Shown piece after piece: positions 11,706 to 19,228 of a stretch of 64,000 nucleotides of DNA. Position 1 is the stretch's first letter. The number at the start of each line of letters is the position of its first letter. Both the position numbers and the translations under genes were made by a program. The stretch comes from Allorhodopirellula heiligendammensis (GTDB lineage Bacteria > Planctomycetota > Planctomycetia > Pirellulales > Pirellulaceae). The notes under the pieces are model-generated. The model ran no database searches and was not told where the DNA came from. It saw nothing but the letters and a program-made list of their open reading frames with translations. Where the stretch lies: NCBI RefSeq assembly GCF_007860105.1, contig NZ_SJPU01000002.1, positions 394,837-458,836 of the forward strand, in the 5' to 3' direction.

Positions 11706-13082
11706 TCAAGTCGATCGATGCCTTCCGGTTAACGGTTCGACGCTGGCCTGAATCTGGTCGATACAGTGGCGGAGAGTCTTTGCCAGAGCTGGATGTTCCA
11801 TTTTCGCATCAACCAGTAATGTGGCAACCGGTTGCCCTCGTTGCACCGGAGTTCCGTCGACAGGGACGTCGGCTAACCGCAGTCGGGGAGACATTCCTGA
11901 GTCGCTCGGATACTCCGCGGCACGGTGCCAATCGCGGGCGAGCTTCGACAGATGTATTCGTCCGGTGGCACGACTGTATACAATTCGTTTGACATGGGTG
12001 GAGGAAGGTTCAGATGGGGCTATCGCGCCGGCATTTGTGCTTGGCCGCGAGCCATCACCTCGCGCCAACACAGCGGAGAGATGCCATTGCATGAGCGAAT
12101 CGGTGACGAGGCCTTGTCGGTTGTGCTGCCGCGCTCGTTCGAGCACTTCGCAAGAGGCGCTGGGCCGCTCATTGATTTCGAGCAACCACCATTGGTTTTG
12201 CCGGTCTTGGATCCAGTCGAGATTGAACAGCCCTCGAAGTCCACGACGCTCTGCCGCCTGTTCGCAGATCAATTGCATGGCTGACCATGGAACGACGTTT
12301 GTGGGACGAAGAGTACGGGATCCGGCATAGACGAAGGGCAAGCGACCGCAGCGGTGGTACATCGAACGCGTCACGCCCAGGAGCGATACTCCTCGATCTT
12401 CCGCTAGCGCTACCAGCCCCACCGGTCGACCGGGGATCCAACGCTGTAGGAACGCATTGTCCGGTATTTTCCGATTGGACGCAGGGTATTGGAACTGAAT
12501 CCCCAGCCCACCGGTCGACGCCACCTCTTTGACGAGCCAGCGGCCAGTTTCGCGCCGGCGGCGTCGATCCGTCGCCGCAATGGTCTCGGGTACCCGAAAT
12601 CCTGCGTTCCTAGCGAGGACGGCGAGCTCGTCATGGGTGAGAGCATTTTGCTCACAGGAGTTGGACTGCGCCGTCCTGAGCCCACCCCCCCAGACGACCG
12701 TGGCCCCTTCCTGCGTCGCGAACCGAGCCACGGAATCACTGAGCTGGCGTGGATCGTCCTGTTCGGCGGAAGTGATTCGTTGGAATCGAGTGCAGGCAGC
12801 GCGAGCGTCAAGATCCCCAAACAAGTCCATCCCGAGCACGCGGTAGCCGCCTGCGGCAGCAGACTGGGCCGCCCACCGGACCGAAGCTCCAACCAGTAAA
12901 ATGCTGGGCAAATCATCGTTTCGGGGGGCGGTTGGCGAGACCTGGTTGGCGAGGCCTGCCGGGTTTGTTACCGTTTCGCTCTGCAAGACCCACCCACCGT
13001 TCGATTGGGATTCCACGTGTGGGGCAAGGACCTCGGGTTCCCCACCGGTCGTTTCCCAAAAAACTCTTTTAATTTGAGGCAT
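11706..13082 (-). CDS. ATP-grasp ligase, probably of the H4MPT cofactor gene set
   Basis: An ATP-grasp fold protein. Near residue 182 is WLVKEVASTGGLGI (nucleotide-binding lysine and glycine-rich loop), then LQRWIPGRPV near 212, and FNLDWI (286) with LLEINERPS (about 300-308), the Mg-binding Asp/Glu/Asn set. ATP-grasp proteins ligate an amine to a carboxylate. A member of this type is linked to bacterial tetrahydromethanopterin gene clusters, and here it abuts fae; its exact step is unknown. The frame stays open far upstream to 13679, but that part is only the antisense of fae. The ATG at 13082 would sit six bases from the fae ATG. A TTG at 12911, just before the first Rossmann strand (PSILLVGAS), is a plausible alternative that frees space for the fae promoter. 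Confidence 0.75.
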   Translation of the reverse strand: MPQIKRVFWETTGGEPEVLAPHVESQSNGGWVLQSETVTNPAGLANQVSPTAPRNDDLPSILLVGASVRWAAQSAAAGGYRVLGMDLFGDLDARAACTRFQRITSAEQDDPRQLSDSVARFATQEGATVVWGGGLRTAQSNSCEQNALTHDELAVLARNAGFRVPETIAATDRRRRRETGRWLVKEVASTGGLGIQFQYPASNRKIPDNAFLQRWIPGRPVGLVALAEDRGVSLLGVTRSMYHRCGRLPFVYAGSRTLRPTNVVPWSAMQLICEQAAERRGLRGLFNLDWIQDRQNQWWLLEINERPSASCEVLERARQHNRQGLVTDSLMQWHLSAVLARGDGSRPSTNAGAIAPSEPSSTHVKRIVYSRATGRIHLSKLARDWHRAAEYPSDSGMSPRLRLADVPVDGTPVQRGQPVATLLVDAKMEHPALAKTLRHCIDQIQASVEPLTGRHRST

Positions 13083-13088
13083 CCTGTC

Positions 13089-13586
13089 ATGCATTTTCAC
13101 ATTGGTGAAGCCCTGGTCGGCGACGGTAACGAAGTCGCCCACATCGACCTGATGATCGGTAGCAAGAACGGTCCTGTCGGAACCGCCTTCGCCAACGCTC
13201 TGGCCAACCAGAGCGAAGGTCACACGAACCTGTTGGCCGTGCTCGAGCCCAACGTCGCCGTCAAGCCTTCCACCGTCATGATCACCAAGGTGACGATCAA
13301 GGGCATGAAGCAAGCCGTGCAAATGTTCGGCCCTGCTCAGGCCGCTGTCGCTCAAGCAGTCGCCGACGCGGTTAGCCAAGGCGTCATTCCTAAAGATGCC
13401 GCTGAAGATCTCGTTTGCGTTTGCGGCGTGTTCATTCACCCCGCCGCCGAAGACGACGAAAAGATCTACAAGTACAACTACGAAGCCACGCTTGAGTCGA
13501 TCAAGAGCGCGATGGGCAGCAAGCCGAGTGTCGACGACATGTTGGCCAAGAAGGACAGTGCCAAGCACCCCTTCCGCGGTTTCTAG
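13089..13586 (+). CDS. fae: Formaldehyde-activating enzyme
   Basis: Catalyses condensation of formaldehyde with tetrahydromethanopterin to methylene-H4MPT, the entry step of H4MPT-linked C1 oxidation in the cytoplasm. The 165-residue protein matches the family in length and sequence. The N-terminus is MHFHIGEALVGDGNEVAHIDL (residues 1-21, quoted to the catalytic region), in which His18 corresponds to the catalytic His17 of Methylorubrum Fae. The MIGSKNGPVG, KPSTVMI and QAVADAVSQGVIP segments follow. The ATG at 13089 is chosen because it begins the conserved domain and has GAGG about ten bases upstream; the frame is open to 13005 without family similarity. Codon use is strongly biased to C-ending codons, suggesting high expression. 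An intrinsic terminator follows before mtd. Confidence 0.96.
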   Translation: MHFHIGEALVGDGNEVAHIDLMIGSKNGPVGTAFANALANQSEGHTNLLAVLEPNVAVKPSTVMITKVTIKGMKQAVQMFGPAQAAVAQAVADAVSQGVIPKDAAEDLVCVCGVFIHPAAEDDEKIYKYNYEATLESIKSAMGSKPSVDDMLAKKDSAKHPFRGF

Positions 13587-13760
13587 TATCCCGTCGATTG
13601 AGTTGGCAACGGCCCTCCGCAACTCCGAACCAAGTGCCGCAAGACGCCACGCTACTCTGAACCGAGTGCTGGGAGGCACCGGGCTAGCCGGTTTACGTGT
13701 CTCGGCTAACTAGATCATTTAGCCATCCATCAAACCGATGGTTTCATTCTTTGAGATTTC

Positions 13761-13812: not shown

Positions 13813-14709
13813 ATGTCAAAAAAGATCCTTCTGCAGTTGGACGTCGATTCCCATCCAAGTTCGTTTGACTCGGTCGTCGCGGTTGACGCGGGTGTTGACC
13901 ATCTTTTCCGATATCCCAACGTCGAGGCTTCCGGCGTCGAGTCGCTCGTTCACGGGGCGATGTTTACTCGGGGCGGAGACGATTTGGCCAATACGGCGAT
14001 CTTCATCGGCGGCAACGATGTGCGGGCTGCGGAGGAGCTATTCGCTGCGGTGCAAAGTGCATTCTTTGGCCCCGTCCGAGTTTCAGTGATGCTCGACGCG
14101 TCAGGATGCAATACCACCGCTGCCGCCGCGGTGGCGTCGCTGACCAAACATGTCTCGCTAGCGGAATCCACCAGCGTTGTGCTCGGCGGAACCGGGCCGG
14201 TTGGCCGCCGCGTCGCCCATCTGCTCGCTCGGCAAGGAGCACATGTAATCCTGGCGAGTCGCTCGCTCGATCGCGCGGAAACGGCCTGTCGTGAAATCGC
14301 ATCAACTCTCGGCAGTTCGTCGGCGGGAAAACCGCGCCTGGAAGCGGCCGCGCCCGAAACGCCGGAGGCCAAAATGCAAGTCCTTAGCCGCGCTGATACG
14401 ATCGTCGCCTGTGGTGCCGCCGGGGTCGAACTGCTGTCCAGCAGCGAGCTGAACGCACTGGAAAATCTCCGCGTCGCCATTGATCTCAATGCCGTGCCAC
14501 CGGCGGGCATTGGCGGCATCGAAGCCTTCGACAAAGCCAAGCGGTTGCGAGGGGACGACGAACACTCGCCACTCGTCTACGGACCCATCGGCGTGGGCGG
14601 GCTGAAAATGCGGACACACAAGGCAGCCATCGCTCAACTTTTCCAAACCAATGACGCCGTCCTCGACGCTGATCAGATCTACGAACTGACCCTGGAACAA
14701 CTCTCCTGA
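13813..14709 (+). CDS. NAD(P)-dependent methylene-tetrahydromethanopterin dehydrogenase (MtdB/MtdC type)
   Basis: Oxidises methylene-H4MPT to methenyl-H4MPT, the step after Fae. The 298-residue length equals that of Methylorubrum MtdB (about 297). An N-terminal MSKKILLQLDVD strand leads into a substrate domain with FIGGNDV. A Rossmann domain with VVLGGTGPVGRRVA (glycine motif at 125-131) is followed by ASRSLDRA, where the residues after the second strand fit NADP or NAD use. I cannot separate MtdB from MtdC by eye, so no symbol is given. It lies 226 bases after fae, with a terminator in between, so it depends on read-through or a very short promoter. It converges on larC. Confidence 0.9.
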   Translation: MSKKILLQLDVDSHPSSFDSVVAVDAGVDHLFRYPNVEASGVESLVHGAMFTRGGDDLANTAIFIGGNDVRAAEELFAAVQSAFFGPVRVSVMLDASGCNTTAAAAVASLTKHVSLAESTSVVLGGTGPVGRRVAHLLARQGAHVILASRSLDRAETACREIASTLGSSSAGKPRLEAAAPETPEAKMQVLSRADTIVACGAAGVELLSSSELNALENLRVAIDLNAVPPAGIGGIEAFDKAKRLRGDDEHSPLVYGPIGVGGLKMRTHKAAIAQLFQTNDAVLDADQIYELTLEQLS

Positions 14710-14816: not shown

Positions 14817-16016
14817 TCACATCGCCGAACCGGCCCGCCAGCTCTGTTCCGCGTCTTGGTGAATCTCGCGAGTTGACTTGCCACTGAGGTTGGCCAAGCG
14901 GCGAGCGTCAGCGTCTTCGAGCGAGAAACGCTGAGCACCGTTCGGCAGCGTGACGACCTTGCCCCGTGCCAATCCATAGCTGGTGGTAATTTCAACCGCT
15001 TTTCTGGCGAGTTTCGAGCGATCGAGGACTTGCCGGCGGACACCGATCGTAGAGGTATGCTCGAACAACAAATTCTGCATCACGGGGGCATCCGCTTCAT
15101 GGCACAACACCGAGATGATGCATGCCAAACGGCCTTTTTTCATCACACATGGTGTCTGCCAAGCGTCCAGGGCACCCGCGGCGATCAACCTTTCGGCCAC
15201 GTCGGCTAACTGTTCAGCGGTCGCATCGTCGACATTCGTTTCCAGCAGCGTAACCTGATCCGTCTCGATATGCTCAGCTCCCGCTTCGCGAGCATGCGTT
15301 TGGCCCAGGGTTAACCTCAACACGTTAGCCTGCCCCGGCAGATCGCGAGTTCCGGCGCCATAGCCAACCCGCATTGGGATCATTGCGGAGGGAGGTCCGA
15401 ACGAGCTGGCAAGCGTTTTGATGATCGCGGCACCGGTGGGTGTGGTCAATTCGGATTCAATCTCACTGAACGCCAGCGGGATGCCGGTGAGTATCTCAGC
15501 CGTCGCCGGCGCGGGGATTGCGACGCGGCCGTGATCGATGACGATCGAACCAGTGCCGGTGGGGATCAGCGAAGACGTGACTTGGTCAACATGCAGCGAG
15601 TCAATCGCGATTGAGACCCCCACGATGTCAGCAATGGAATCGACGGCGCCGACTTCGTGGAAGTGCACTTTTTTCAGGTCGCAGCCATGTACTTTCGCCT
15701 CGGCCTCGCCAATGCAGCGAAAAATCTGTATCGCGAGTGTTTTAGCGGATTCCGAAATCCCGCCGGCCGCTGCGATCATATCCTCGATATGATGCAGGTG
15801 GCGGTGAGCGTGCTGTTCGGGATGCTCGACGCGGATGTATGTCGCTCGAAATCCGCATTTCCGGACCTCATCGACGTGCAGTTTCAAATCCGCCACATTG
15901 AGCGATGCCAAGCCGTCGCGAATGAGTTGCGGTGACACCCCGATGTCGATTAGAGCCGCCAGGGTCATATCACCACTGATGCCGCTGAGGCAATCAAAAT
16001 GTAAATTGGTTTTCAT
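14817..16016 (-). CDS. larC: Nickel-pincer cofactor biosynthesis protein LarC
   Basis: CTP-dependent nickel insertase that puts Ni into the pyridinium-dithiocarboxylate mononucleotide to make the lactate racemase cofactor. The 399-residue protein has FDCLSGISGDM at residues 7-17, a histidine-rich stretch at 65-76 (several H within HPEQHAHRHLHH) and HFHEVGAVDSIAD at about 118-130. The C-terminal domain (LLETNVDDATAEQLAD and so on) is the LarC2 part. It is a single intact frame; some lactobacilli need a programmed frameshift to join these two parts. The ATG at 16016 starts the conserved domain; the open frame reaches 16109 without family similarity. No larB, larE or canonical larA is in the window. 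Its coding start is 48 bases from the divergent membrane protein. Confidence 0.93.
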   Translation of the reverse strand: MKTNLHFDCLSGISGDMTLAALIDIGVSPQLIRDGLASLNVADLKLHVDEVRKCGFRATYIRVEHPEQHAHRHLHHIEDMIAAAGGISESAKTLAIQIFRCIGEAEAKVHGCDLKKVHFHEVGAVDSIADIVGVSIAIDSLHVDQVTSSLIPTGTGSIVIDHGRVAIPAPATAEILTGIPLAFSEIESELTTPTGAAIIKTLASSFGPPSAMIPMRVGYGAGTRDLPGQANVLRLTLGQTHAREAGAEHIETDQVTLLETNVDDATAEQLADVAERLIAAGALDAWQTPCVMKKGRLACIISVLCHEADAPVMQNLLFEHTSTIGVRRQVLDRSKLARKAVEITTSYGLARGKVVTLPNGAQRFSLEDADARRLANLSGKSTREIHQDAEQSWRAGSAM

Positions 16017-16064
16017 GAGAGAGAGTACACCAAATCGGCGGCCGCAACGGAATGCCGCGGCCCC

Positions 16065-17264
16065 ATGAATCTTGCCGGAAAAGAAACGCAACGTCTCCAT
16101 TGGCTTCACATTCGAGTCGCCCTCTGGACCGCTCCGCTCATGTTTGGACTCGCTGTCGCGTTCCTCGTCTGCCAGGCGGTTTTGATCGTGATGTGGGTCG
16201 ATGTGCCCGCGCTACGGGAGCGAACCGTGGCAGCAGCCCAGGAATTGCCCACCGACGGTGCTTTTTCGACTGACGACTCCGCGGATCTCCAGCAGGAAGT
16301 CCCCATCAACTCAGCCCGCCAAGACAGCGCGGCGGCAACGCCAACGGATCAATCGGCAGAGCTCGAGTCGCTGCAGCAAGCCGTACTCGGCCCTGTCTCG
16401 CCCTCTCAAATCTTGATTGAACGAGCGGCGATCGGGTGCATGTATTTGATTTGGCCGCTGGTGATTGTCGAATCGATCTATCACATGGTAATTCGACCCA
16501 AAACGAGGGGGTTTGCCAAAATGCATGCTTATTCGCTGCTGTTTTGCCTGTGTCCGTCGCTGCGGATGTGCGCGCGGAGCGCGGAAATGGGCGGTCGGCT
16601 GTGGCTACCAAAGTGGTCGTGGCAGCGTGCTGATCGCCGGTTGAGGCGACGTCTCGAGCAATCCTTCAGCGTGCCCATGATCGGTATCGCATTGTTGATC
16701 GTGCCCGTGTTGGTGGTGGAGTTTTTGCTGAAGGAACAAGTCGCGAAGTATGCTTGGCTGCGCGTGCTGCTACATATTGGAACGGGCGTCATTTGGTTCG
16801 CATTCGCTGCCGAATTTATTCTGATGATCTCGATTGCCGAGAAAAAATTCGACTATCTGCGCCGCCATTGGGTGGATCTGGCCATTATCGTGCTGCCTTT
16901 TTTCTCATTTTTGCGGTCATTGCAAGCCATGCGCGGTACCCGTTTGGCGCGTCTGGCGAAAATTCCGCAACTGACCAAGCTCGCCCGTGCCTACCGGCTG
17001 CGTGGCACCGTCCTGCGCGCTTTCCGGGCCCTCGTGATCCTCGATGTGTCGGCTCGCTTATTCCAATCGACGCCCGAAAAGCGACTGGCTCAACTACGCC
17101 GAAAATTGGTTGCCACCCAGCGTGAATCTCGCATGATCCGCTTGATGATCGTGCGAATCGAGCGTCAGATCCCGCCACCCACCCCCCCGAATGATACTTC
17201 CACGACAGCGCCGTCCCTTGAGATGGACCAATCCCAGACCGACCCAACGGCAAAGGATTCGTGA
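16065..17264 (+). CDS. Membrane protein with a voltage-sensor-like four-helix domain, no pore seen
   Basis: A 399-residue protein. The N-terminal part has two likely membrane helices (about 21-43 and 120-142) flanking a polar, Gln/Asp-rich linker. The second half looks like an S1-S4 voltage-sensing domain: a helix at 203-222; one at 238-258 with an embedded Glu; one at 268-283 of the form HWVDLAIIVLPFF, where the buried Asp is typical of S3; then a basic helix with Arg or Lys about every third residue (RSLQAMRGTRLARLAKI, 284-300). What follows is a basic, helical cytoplasmic tail; I see no S5, selectivity filter or S6. It is divergent from larC. Related proteins may be annotated as ion transporters, but a channel function is not shown by this sequence. 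Confidence 0.6.
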   Translation: MNLAGKETQRLHWLHIRVALWTAPLMFGLAVAFLVCQAVLIVMWVDVPALRERTVAAAQELPTDGAFSTDDSADLQQEVPINSARQDSAAATPTDQSAELESLQQAVLGPVSPSQILIERAAIGCMYLIWPLVIVESIYHMVIRPKTRGFAKMHAYSLLFCLCPSLRMCARSAEMGGRLWLPKWSWQRADRRLRRRLEQSFSVPMIGIALLIVPVLVVEFLLKEQVAKYAWLRVLLHIGTGVIWFAFAAEFILMISIAEKKFDYLRRHWVDLAIIVLPFFSFLRSLQAMRGTRLARLAKIPQLTKLARAYRLRGTVLRAFRALVILDVSARLFQSTPEKRLAQLRRKLVATQRESRMIRLMIVRIERQIPPPTPPNDTSTTAPSLEMDQSQTDPTAKDS

Positions 17265-17482
17265 AGATTACCAGGAAAATGAACAATCGACTTGTTTTCT
17301 TGAAACTATGCGCCGGTTGTGCGGGTAATGGTTGATGGAGCGGCGTGGTTCAGCCATGAACGCGCGTCCGAGCCTCTGCTTTGGATGGGTCAACCGTTCA
17401 CAAGCCAGGGCACTCGTGGCGTGGCAATTGCACGGCGGTAGCCGCTCGATTCCCTCTTTCAGTCAGTACAACACAGATAAGG

Positions 17483-19228
17483 ATGTTTTTCGTGAGACGA
17501 CTTTTCACTCCCTCTCGTTTTGCTCGCACCGCCGCAGTTGCGGTCGTAGCATTGTCCACCTTTGCGATGACACTGTCACCGCTGGGCAATCTTTTGGCCC
17601 AAGACAAACAGCCCGCTGGTCAGTCGGGGTCCGCCGTGCCCGCCGCTACCGACCCGGTCGTGGTGGTGACGATTGGCAGCGTAAATCAATTGACTCAGGA
17701 TCTGAATTACCTCAGTGGCGCGATCGGACAGCCTCAGTTCGGCGGCATGTTCGCGATGATGGCGGGCAGTCTCACCCAGGGTATCGATACGAACCAGCCC
17801 GTGGGCGTGCTGGTGCCATTGATCGACGGTTCACCGGAGCCAATCGCGCTCATTCCCACCTCGGACGTCAAGGTATTGCTCAAGCGTCACGAAGATAAAA
17901 CCGGCCCCGCCGACGAACTCGCCGACGGCACTCTCGTATTAGCCATCGGCGCCAACACCGTTTTCATTCGTCAAGTTGGGAACTGGGCCGTCTTGGCTCG
18001 CAACCGCAACGTACTCGACCGCGCCCCAGCGGATCCCTCGGCCGCTTTGGGACAGTTGGGTTCGGATTACGATCTCGGCGTGCGTTTGGACATGCAACAG
18101 CTTCCCGAAGCGGTTCGCGACAGCGTGATTGCCCAACTGCGTCAGGGATTCGATCAAGCAATTAGCCGCCAAGGCGGTGAGGACGCAGAATCCTCGCGGG
18201 AATACGCGCAGCGTTCGATGGATCAACTTGAGCAGATGATCAAGCAAACCGACGAACTGATGGTGGGGATCGACATTGATTCGAAGGGGAAACGCATCGT
18301 CGTGGACCTTTCGTTCACGGCGCTTCCTGGCACCAAACTCGCTAAAATGTATGCCAGCCAACAGCCGATTCCATCGGCGTACTCGATGGTCGTACGCGAT
18401 GACGCAGCAGCCTACTACCACGCTGCCACCTCGATCAGTCCAGAGACGGTGCAGGAGGCACGTGCCGGCGTAGACAGTATGCTGAAGATGTTCGCTCAAG
18501 CGGTCCAAAAGTCTGACAAGTTGGACAAAGCCGAAGCGGATGACGCAACCGAGGTGGTCAACCGCATCGCTGACTTGGTGTTGGAATCCTACAAAGAAGG
18601 GAAGCTCGATTCAGGGGCTCTGCTGCTCACCGACGCCGGTTCGATGAAGTTCGTCATGGGTGGTTTCGTCTCCGACGGAAATGAAGCCGCAGCGATTCTC
18701 AAAGATATTGCTGGCAAGGTAAAAGGTCATGGCGATGCACCTGACTTCGAATTTGATCGGGACACCTACCATGGCGTGAATCTACACTTGGTCTCCGCTA
18801 AAGTTCCTGCCAAGGACGATGAGGTCCGTAAGATTTTCGGCGATACGGTTCGCGTCCATGTCGGCACCGCCGACAAGGCTGTGTATGTCGCGCTGGGTGA
18901 CCAGAGTCTGCCACTGCTCAAAGAGATGATCGACGCTGCGGCAAGTCCCGCCTCATCCGCCAGTGCTGACTTGGTCAGCGTTGAAGTGAACTTGATGCCG
19001 ATTTTGCAGTACGCTCAGTCGGTCGAGGCCAATGACGATATCGCCGCCATGATCGACGCGCTCAGCCGCGCCGATGATGCCGGTACGCTCCATGCGACAA
19101 GTAGTCCGGTCGCCAATGGCCAGAAAACCCGTGTTGTGTTGGGCGACGGGTTGCTACGGGCAATCGGTGGAGCAGTCCGCCAAGCCCAAGCGAAGCAGCT
19201 ACAACAGCAGAACACCGGCGGATTCTAA
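17483..19228 (+). CDS. Large secreted protein of unknown function
   Basis: A 581-residue protein with a basic N-terminus and a hydrophobic signal segment (about 12-36) that ends near LLAQ, so it is exported. The mature part is hydrophilic, without recognised motifs or membrane segments. It contains a helical region rich in Gln/Asp/Glu (about 225-270) and ends in QAKQLQQQN. I do not recognise the family, though secreted proteins of this size and composition are common in planctomycetes. The ATG at 17483 is preceded by AAGG directly adjacent to it; the frame is open back to 17381, but that part has no signal-peptide character. It stands alone between the voltage-sensor-like gene and the DUF1592 gene. 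Confidence 0.7.
   Translation: MFFVRRLFTPSRFARTAAVAVVALSTFAMTLSPLGNLLAQDKQPAGQSGSAVPAATDPVVVVTIGSVNQLTQDLNYLSGAIGQPQFGGMFAMMAGSLTQGIDTNQPVGVLVPLIDGSPEPIALIPTSDVKVLLKRHEDKTGPADELADGTLVLAIGANTVFIRQVGNWAVLARNRNVLDRAPADPSAALGQLGSDYDLGVRLDMQQLPEAVRDSVIAQLRQGFDQAISRQGGEDAESSREYAQRSMDQLEQMIKQTDELMVGIDIDSKGKRIVVDLSFTALPGTKLAKMYASQQPIPSAYSMVVRDDAAAYYHAATSISPETVQEARAGVDSMLKMFAQAVQKSDKLDKAEADDATEVVNRIADLVLESYKEGKLDSGALLLTDAGSMKFVMGGFVSDGNEAAAILKDIAGKVKGHGDAPDFEFDRDTYHGVNLHLVSAKVPAKDDEVRKIFGDTVRVHVGTADKAVYVALGDQSLPLLKEMIDAAASPASSASADLVSVEVNLMPILQYAQSVEANDDIAAMIDALSRADDAGTLHATSSPVANGQKTRVVLGDGLLRAIGGAVRQAQAKQLQQQNTGGF

Follow-up and report, generated by a model that had tools for sequence, protein, structure and literature searches.

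Voltage sensors with and without a pore

According to the accessible part of a 2023 review (PMC10377628), all known prokaryotic voltage-sensor domains are accompanied by a K+, Na+ or Ca2+ pore, while Hv channels occur in neither bacteria nor archaea and go back to a splitting event in an early eukaryote. Voltage-sensing phosphatases (VSPs) are given as pore-less sensors in the available part of PMC13095418, as is TMEM266 by a title cited there. No bacterial pore-less sensor is named in the available parts of PMC13095418, PMC10651576, PMC10584675 and PMC7935092. The initial annotation of the protein described here held that such a bacterial sensor would be new, in agreement with what is accessible of PMC10377628. 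The family is undescribed among the matches listed in a literature search that covered neither preprints nor most subscription journals, and it is unnamed so far, as far as the literature and databases searched show.

A conserved planctomycete family

The window, i.e. the whole stretch of DNA analyzed here, comprises 64,000 nucleotides of Allorhodopirellula heiligendammensis (G000:C2:394837-458836), and coordinates below are window positions on the plus strand unless otherwise stated. The open reading frame at 16065..17264, with its ATG at 16065 and its stop at 17264, is a genuine gene that encodes a pore-less protein of 399 amino acids with a probable voltage-sensor domain, for which relatives were found.

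The protein belongs to a conserved planctomycete family, with named relatives in Rhodopirellula, Rubripirellula, Stieleria and other Pirellulaceae-type records. By protein search it matched 18 out of 40 relatives at E<=0.001, namely all 13 genomes of its own genus, two genomes of the taxonomic family strongly and three weakly, the last being other sensor-bearing proteins. With a 15-member profile, matches were found in 107 of the 241 genomes of the taxonomic family (E<=0.001), and with a 28-member profile in 101 of the 397 genomes of the class (E<=0.001), the latter including at least three other proteins or ordinary channels: those of G397 and G494, by reading channels with a pore or pore-like segment, and the place in G029, which is a full Ion_trans match. 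A 37-member profile gave matches in 40 of 392 phylum genomes at E<=1e-5. Strong matches (E<=8.3e-74) accounted for 27 of these, one of them outside the class, and the 13 weak ones are mostly other proteins, i.e. short sensor-only proteins (L188, L189), the large-protein type (L199, L200), a 199-aa reading frame (L203) and eight that by reading resemble channels with pores or pore-like segments, partly with RCK-like tails. The family comparisons rest on 68 sequences, of which 66 are usable (L151 and L179 are truncated), and on 37 representatives with less than 60% identity.

Protein layout and topology

The window protein would be a six-helix inner-membrane protein in which a helix hairpin, a PSLRM..WLP motif and S1-S4 are followed by a basic linker helix and a C-terminal helix presumed to form a coiled coil. 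TM1 (residues 25-43, 16137..16193) has a hydropathy peak of 2.63 and lies within the model helix 3-60, and TM2 (residues 116-139, 16410..16481; hydropathy 1.69-1.78) corresponds to the model helix 113-143. Between them lies a polar, acidic and presumably periplasmic linker (residues 47-112, 16203..16400). The two N-terminal helices and polar linker of the initial annotation are thus present, but the length of the linker is not a general trait: between aligned positions 47 and 116 there are 69 residues in the window protein, against a median of 5.5 in the 68 sequences, which makes it a lineage-specific insertion. TM2 is followed by the conserved, presumably cytoplasmic motif PSLRMCARSxEMxxRLWLPxxxW (residues 164-186, 16554..16622), in which P164, R167, W180 and P182 are invariant across the 37 representatives.

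S1 (residues 203-221, 16671..16727), placed by AlphaFold and sequence comparison, S2 (230-257, 16752..16835), S3 (269-283, 16869..16913) and the S4-like ladder (284-301, 16914..16967) lead into a basic helix resembling an S4-S5 linker (302-333, 16968..17063). This helix carries QLTKxARxYRLRG and RALVILDVSARL, with R311 kept in 64/66 sequences, Tyr or Phe at 310 in 66/66 and R331 in 63/66. The C-terminal helix (337-368, 17073..17168; likewise a helix in the model) shows heptad spacing, with hydrophobic residues at 7 of the 11 a/d positions in the best of the seven heptad frames. It is presumed to be a coiled coil, and the protein may dimerise.

The linker after TM1 holds 3 Lys and Arg and 11 Asp and Glu residues, while Lys and Arg number 14 in the 142-200 loop, 4 in the S2-S3 loop and 9 in the tail after S4. 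By the positive-inside rule these charges place the first linker outside and the other three segments inside, so that S4 would have to cross the membrane back.

As had been proposed from the sequence alone, no S5-pore-S6 follows the fourth helix. The 66 usable sequences extend 60-171 residues beyond R311, and the best 19-residue hydropathy window in this region is <=1.5, i.e. below transmembrane strength. Nor was a TVGYG-like filter found in any of the 68 sequences. By hydropathy and filter alike, the family lacks in cis the S5-P-S6 unit of voltage-gated K+, Na+ and Ca2+ channels.

Conserved residues of S1-S3

Six residues (P214, W244, F247, E250, F251 and P278) are invariant in the 66 usable sequences, P214 lying in S1 and P278 in S3, and E219 in S1 is acidic in 61/66. 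The glutamate that the initial annotation had placed in the domain's second helix is E250 (VIWFAFAAEF), and the aspartate early in the third is D271 (HWVDLAII). The former is part of the pair Phe-x-x-Glu (F247, E250), present in 66/66 sequences and aligned with the channel S2, which constitutes the charge-transfer centre characteristic of the VSD superfamily. The S3 acid at 271, likewise a mark of this superfamily and aligned with the channels by hhalign, is Asp in 64 and Glu in two of the 66. In Shaker, E293 and D316 are the S2 and S3 countercharges, according to the accessible part of PMC7059764; aligned by motif, they would correspond to E250 and D271.

The S2 search pattern for sensors begins [FYW]xx[ED]xxx[RK] in the part of PMC4878010 at hand. 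Position 254, four residues after the S2 glutamate, is Met in 48/66 sequences including the window protein and Lys or Arg in 15/66. The pattern is therefore complete in this Lys/Arg minority only, and is absent from the window protein; it is a search pattern and no strict requirement of the superfamily.

The S4 ladder

The fourth helix had been described as having a basic residue at every third position. The window protein does have basic residues in one three-residue register, at 284, 290, 293, 296, 299, 305, 308 and 311, but with two gaps, as 287 and 302 are Gln; R313 lies outside the register. Within S4 the rungs are R284, Q287, R290, R293, R296 and K299, and five basic residues in 284-299 give the window protein the S4 charge content of a VSD. 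The ladder is in register with the S4 of planctomycete channels.

From D271 to R311, 385 of the 416 Lys and Arg residues in the 66 relatives share one register, as do 209 of 232 in the 37 representatives. The latter count compares with a maximum of 126 in 20,000 shuffles, where p-values are inflated by the relatedness of the sequences and three of the four control segments beat their shuffles too. The register fraction is therefore to be preferred as a measure. It was 0.90 for S4 alone (114 of 126 basic residues in 281-301) and 0.39-0.60 for the four control segments taken from these proteins, with 29 channels as a positive control reaching 0.99 (166/168 S4 basic residues).

The number of charges is far less constant. 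Family members have between one and six S4 charges, with a median of three; the extremes are L161 and L175, with a single charge each and thus short of a VSD-like S4, and L052 with six. R284 is kept in 44/66, five Stieleria-type members have Asp at 296, and acids occur in the S4 segment of several others. Conservation is lower in S4 than in S1-S3 and the linker. Among 28 close relatives, differences in S4 length amount to 3 or 9 residues, so that the register is preserved, and the distance from D271 to R311 falls into one class modulo 3 in 46/66 sequences. As judged from the alignments, the ladder is a conserved pattern rather than a conserved set of residues; in homologues it is kept as a register and not charge by charge. 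We read the variation in charge as genuine variation in the members' possible voltage-sensing strength, and with such variable charge numbers voltage sensitivity, if any, must differ among lineages.

Relationship to the sensors of voltage-gated channels

Residues ~191-311 are very probably homologous to the S1-S4 voltage-sensor domain, and the profile comparisons indicate ancestry shared with the sensors of K+ and Na+ channels. When a sensor profile of the 37 representatives was searched against PDB sequences, all 49 matches (E<=10) were voltage-gated Na+ or K+ channels, many of the chains being near-duplicates of one another; the best had an E value of 7.9e-4, and two were below 1e-3. These matches were obtained because divergent members had been added and the profile trimmed to the sensor. 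In an earlier profile, made from 28 full-length close relatives, coiled-coil noise predominated and Kv3.1 appeared at E 6.3; this profile was discarded.

In hhalign, the 28-member alignment matched 29 planctomycete channels (by reading nearly all of K+ type, with L086 Na+-channel-like) at P 2.2e-7 for the full alignment and 1.2e-7 for the VSD, and the 37 members matched 18 of these channels at P 1.4e-8. Controls with one side reversed gave P 1.3e-4 to 3.9e-4 and the N-terminal part 0.12, while reversing both sides, a control that preserves the true pairing, gave 7.6e-7. The family segment LRSLQAMRGTRLARLAKI is paired with LRSIRAFRLLRLFRMFKL of the planctomycete channels, with the register kept. 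Searches with the window protein itself reach S1-S4 of the true channels L017 and L018 (E 7.8e-5 and 7.7e-4, respectively) and of a large pore-less protein (E 1.3e-6), all E values being for one genome.

Domain models gave a fainter signal. Pfam Ion_trans (PF00520) was found at E<=0.1 in 24 of the 37 sensor-trimmed members (best 1.9e-5), at E<=0.01 in 11 of the 37 when nearly full-length, and in three of 28 untrimmed relatives (best 4.3e-4), where unrelated families were as frequent. The window protein alone matched no Pfam family at E<=10, and in NCBIfam only TIGR04438 and a LapA module, both weakly and far below the cut-offs; the 37 members also had only weak NCBIfam matches. No family in either database covers the window protein or its relatives. 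Against PDB sequences the window protein gave one chance-level chain, MmoD, a weak match in the polar linker. In the opposite direction, at E<=0.01 the Ion_trans model missed the window protein in its own genome and, among the orthologues of the genus, found only that of G007 (0.0038, below the cut-off), and a channel-sensor profile did not recover the window protein from its own genome at E<=10.

Structure models

In the AlphaFold models, S3 and S4 come out as a single helix (269-297), with a pLDDT of about 50-66 in the S4 part. The expected four-helix sensor fold is thus reproduced for S1-S3, which match known sensors, but not for S3 and S4, which are fused at low confidence. Given the match of S1-S3 and the positive-inside rule, we read the fusion as a model failure, probably from the shallow alignment (28 rows). 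A sensor-only model was built without templates and without channel rows. In VIA, Nav, Kv and SLC9C1 sensors made up 44 of its 50 rows, mostly over S1-S3, at Z 5.8-8.7, values that helical bundles can reach without relatedness and that come from a program re-aligning Foldseek candidates only. Of these sensor rows, 38 align 82-104 residues with an rmsd of 2.4-4.9 and six extend further with an rmsd of 15-19. Foldseek had no match at E<=0.001 for the full or the sensor-only model; for the latter, 16 of 29 rows were Kv/Nav (14) or SLC9C1 (2), all at E>=1.5. In the model comparison, then, the sensor likeness is support for a sensor fold rather than proof. For the full model, VIA gave the AtTPC1 sensor at Z 6.4, tied with unrelated helical proteins, and this candidate was set aside.

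Taken with the profile, PDB-sequence and register tests, the S1-S3 fold matches back the original reading of the region as an S1-S4 voltage-sensor-like domain. The fused S3-S4 helix and the uneven charges of the ladder each bear in part on the two objections that the initial annotation had foreseen, namely a fold other than the four-helix sensor and a ladder not kept in homologues.

Comparison with described proteins

The family shares with the sensors of prokaryotic and eukaryotic Kv and Nav channels (Ion_trans, PF00520) the S2 F-x-x-E, the S3 Asp, the three-residue register of S4 and a helix like the S4-S5 linker, in addition to the profile, PDB-sequence and S1-S3 fold matches. It differs in having two extra N-terminal helices and no S5-P-S6, in a position four residues after the S2 glutamate that is mostly Met instead of basic, and, for the window protein, in the absence of an Ion_trans match. 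Membership among the voltage-gated channels fails on the pore.

Hv1 has a coiled coil after its sensor domain and the S4 signature R-x-W-R-x-x-R. The present family resembles Hv1/VSOP in pairing a pore-less sensor with a presumed coiled coil downstream of it, but has an extra N-terminal hairpin. The S1 position seven before E219, which by its spacing we take to be the equivalent of Hv1 Asp112, is Ile, Val or Leu in 66/66 sequences, an assignment that depends on the alignment, and R.WR..R occurs in 0/68. On these two sequence features, membership of the Hv1 family would fail.

VSP/TPTE and TMEM266 are similar in that a sensor without a pore would act on something else, whereas the present family is bacterial and has the extra hairpin. 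No Pfam match to a PTEN-like phosphatase domain was found in the window protein or in the 37 members (in the part aligned to 17-368).

Another planctomycete architecture is found in L116:2419-6597 (+), L117:1717-6270 (-) and L118:1914-5921 (+), with frames of 1336-1518 aa. These match Ion_trans over S1-S4 above the cut-off (27-35 bits, limited to profile positions 3-125), and by reading they lack an obvious pore. Similar proteins occur in L199 and L200, in other parts of the phylum. The basic pre-S1 helix and the stretch from S1 to S3 are common to L116-L118 and the window family (hhalign probability 97.2, P 3.6e-11), whereas a much greater size, different N- and C-terminal regions and the Ion_trans match above the cut-off set L116-L118 apart.

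Outside the class, L188:863-1711 (+) and L189:608-1546 (-) are open frames of 283 and 313 aa, with S1-S3, a shortened S4 and FxxExxxK in S2, by reading without the N-terminal hairpin. L194, L195, L196, L201, L202 and L028 by reading combine a sensor with a pore-like segment, in which the filters are unusual (e.g. LVSLQPTLGEP), and an RCK-like tail. At L193 (G306:C1:4810487-4813681), one of 20 stretches compared, two extra N-terminal family-profile matches (E 9.2e-14 and 3.1e-11) are adjacent on opposite strands, with no sensor-profile match there. In the 13 genomes with weaker phylum matches, no fused effector was found in the remote relatives.

Gene neighborhood

No conserved operon partner was found in 27 loci (Pfam on nine proteins). 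Two genes recurred, the one for nickel insertion and the downstream one of 615 aa, at five loci each, all of Rhodopirellula type; other loci have other neighbors. In the window, the latter is an open frame at 17381-19228 (+) without a Pfam match (E<=0.001), which follows the sensor gene likewise in L029, L031, L032, L033 and L034. On the other side, 14817-16109 (-) encodes a nickel insertion protein (Pfam Ni_insertion, LarC-type). Since the match begins at residue 36, the true start is probably near 16016, and the gene would thus be divergent from the sensor gene. Further upstream, a formaldehyde-activating enzyme (13005-13586, +), a protein whose N-terminal domain is that of methylene-H4MPT dehydrogenase (13813-14709, +) and an ATP-grasp protein (11706-13679, -) belong to a C1 (H4MPT) gene group next to the sensor gene.

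Possible modes of action

We slightly favor a voltage-responsive S1-S4 module whose linker and presumed coiled coil would pass S4 motion to a partner or through the oligomer, and rate a voltage-responsive function as plausible, unproven and a little above an even chance. S4 would run into the conserved basic linker helix (YRLRG) and the presumed coiled coil in place of a pore. Most likely, a change in membrane potential would move S4 past the charge-transfer centre of F247, E250 and D271, and the linker and coiled coil would relay this motion to a partner in the cytoplasm or alter the oligomer. The protein would then work like the sensors of Hv1, TMEM266 or VSPs, though it belongs to none of these groups.

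Some channels keep S1-S4 without much voltage dependence, and the domain could similarly be a degenerate, channel-inherited fold with a structural or a lipid- or protein-binding role, in which sensing is weak or lost. The spread of one to six S4 charges around a median of three, the acids in the S4 of some members, the retention of R284 in only 44/66 and the lower conservation of S4 relative to S1-S3 and the linker all fit this reading. It leaves unexplained why the remaining charges keep a register of 0.90, with S4 lengths of close relatives differing by 3 or 9 residues, and why F247, E250 and the acid at 271 are conserved, as these have no obvious role absent S4 charges; we consider it unlikely, at somewhat over one chance in five. 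Less probable still is that ions pass through the sensor domain itself, in a voltage-gated proton or cation leak through S1-S4 after the manner of Hv1 or omega currents. Hv1, like this family, is pore-less with a coiled coil, here a presumed one. Gating-pore currents usually occur in sensors missing at least one S4 charge, according to the accessible part of PMC10651576, and 287 is Gln in the window protein and 296 Asp in five relatives. Against a leak of this kind, the position equated with Asp112 is aliphatic throughout, the Hv1 S4 signature is missing, and no Hv1 chain occurs among the 49 PDB matches of the 37-member sensor profile.

The least probable account, and a distinctly improbable one, assigns the pore to a different protein, with the present one as its sensor subunit and the helix resembling an S4-S5 linker docking on it. 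The high conservation of this segment despite the missing S5 fits such a split channel, and engineered KCNH channels function when split into a sensor chain and a pore chain (PMC6013512, accessible part). Candidate pores would be the 3-7 Ion_trans_2 matches in each of the 13 own-genus genomes, but these counts include ordinary Kv channels, so that any pairing with the sensor would be putative. Moreover, all five matches of the own genome lie outside the window, and Ion_trans matches limited to S5-S6 occur in only 5 of the 13 genomes.

Implications

With this family, the question of a dedicated bacterial membrane-potential sensor becomes testable in a culturable host. The 37 representatives also put dozens of natural S4 variants on offer for sensor biophysics and the design of voltage indicators. 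Pore-less sensors have so far been described as eukaryotic, and a bacterial family would show that sensor and pore have parted in bacteria too. Tentatively, and at somewhat less than even odds, Planctomycetes may have inherited a family of free-standing voltage sensors, the first bacterial ones, which would turn membrane potential into a signal in the cytoplasm, or into a proton or cation leak, with no channel pore involved. The sensor would then have been tuned differently among lineages, through gains and losses of S4 charges, one ladder turn at a time.
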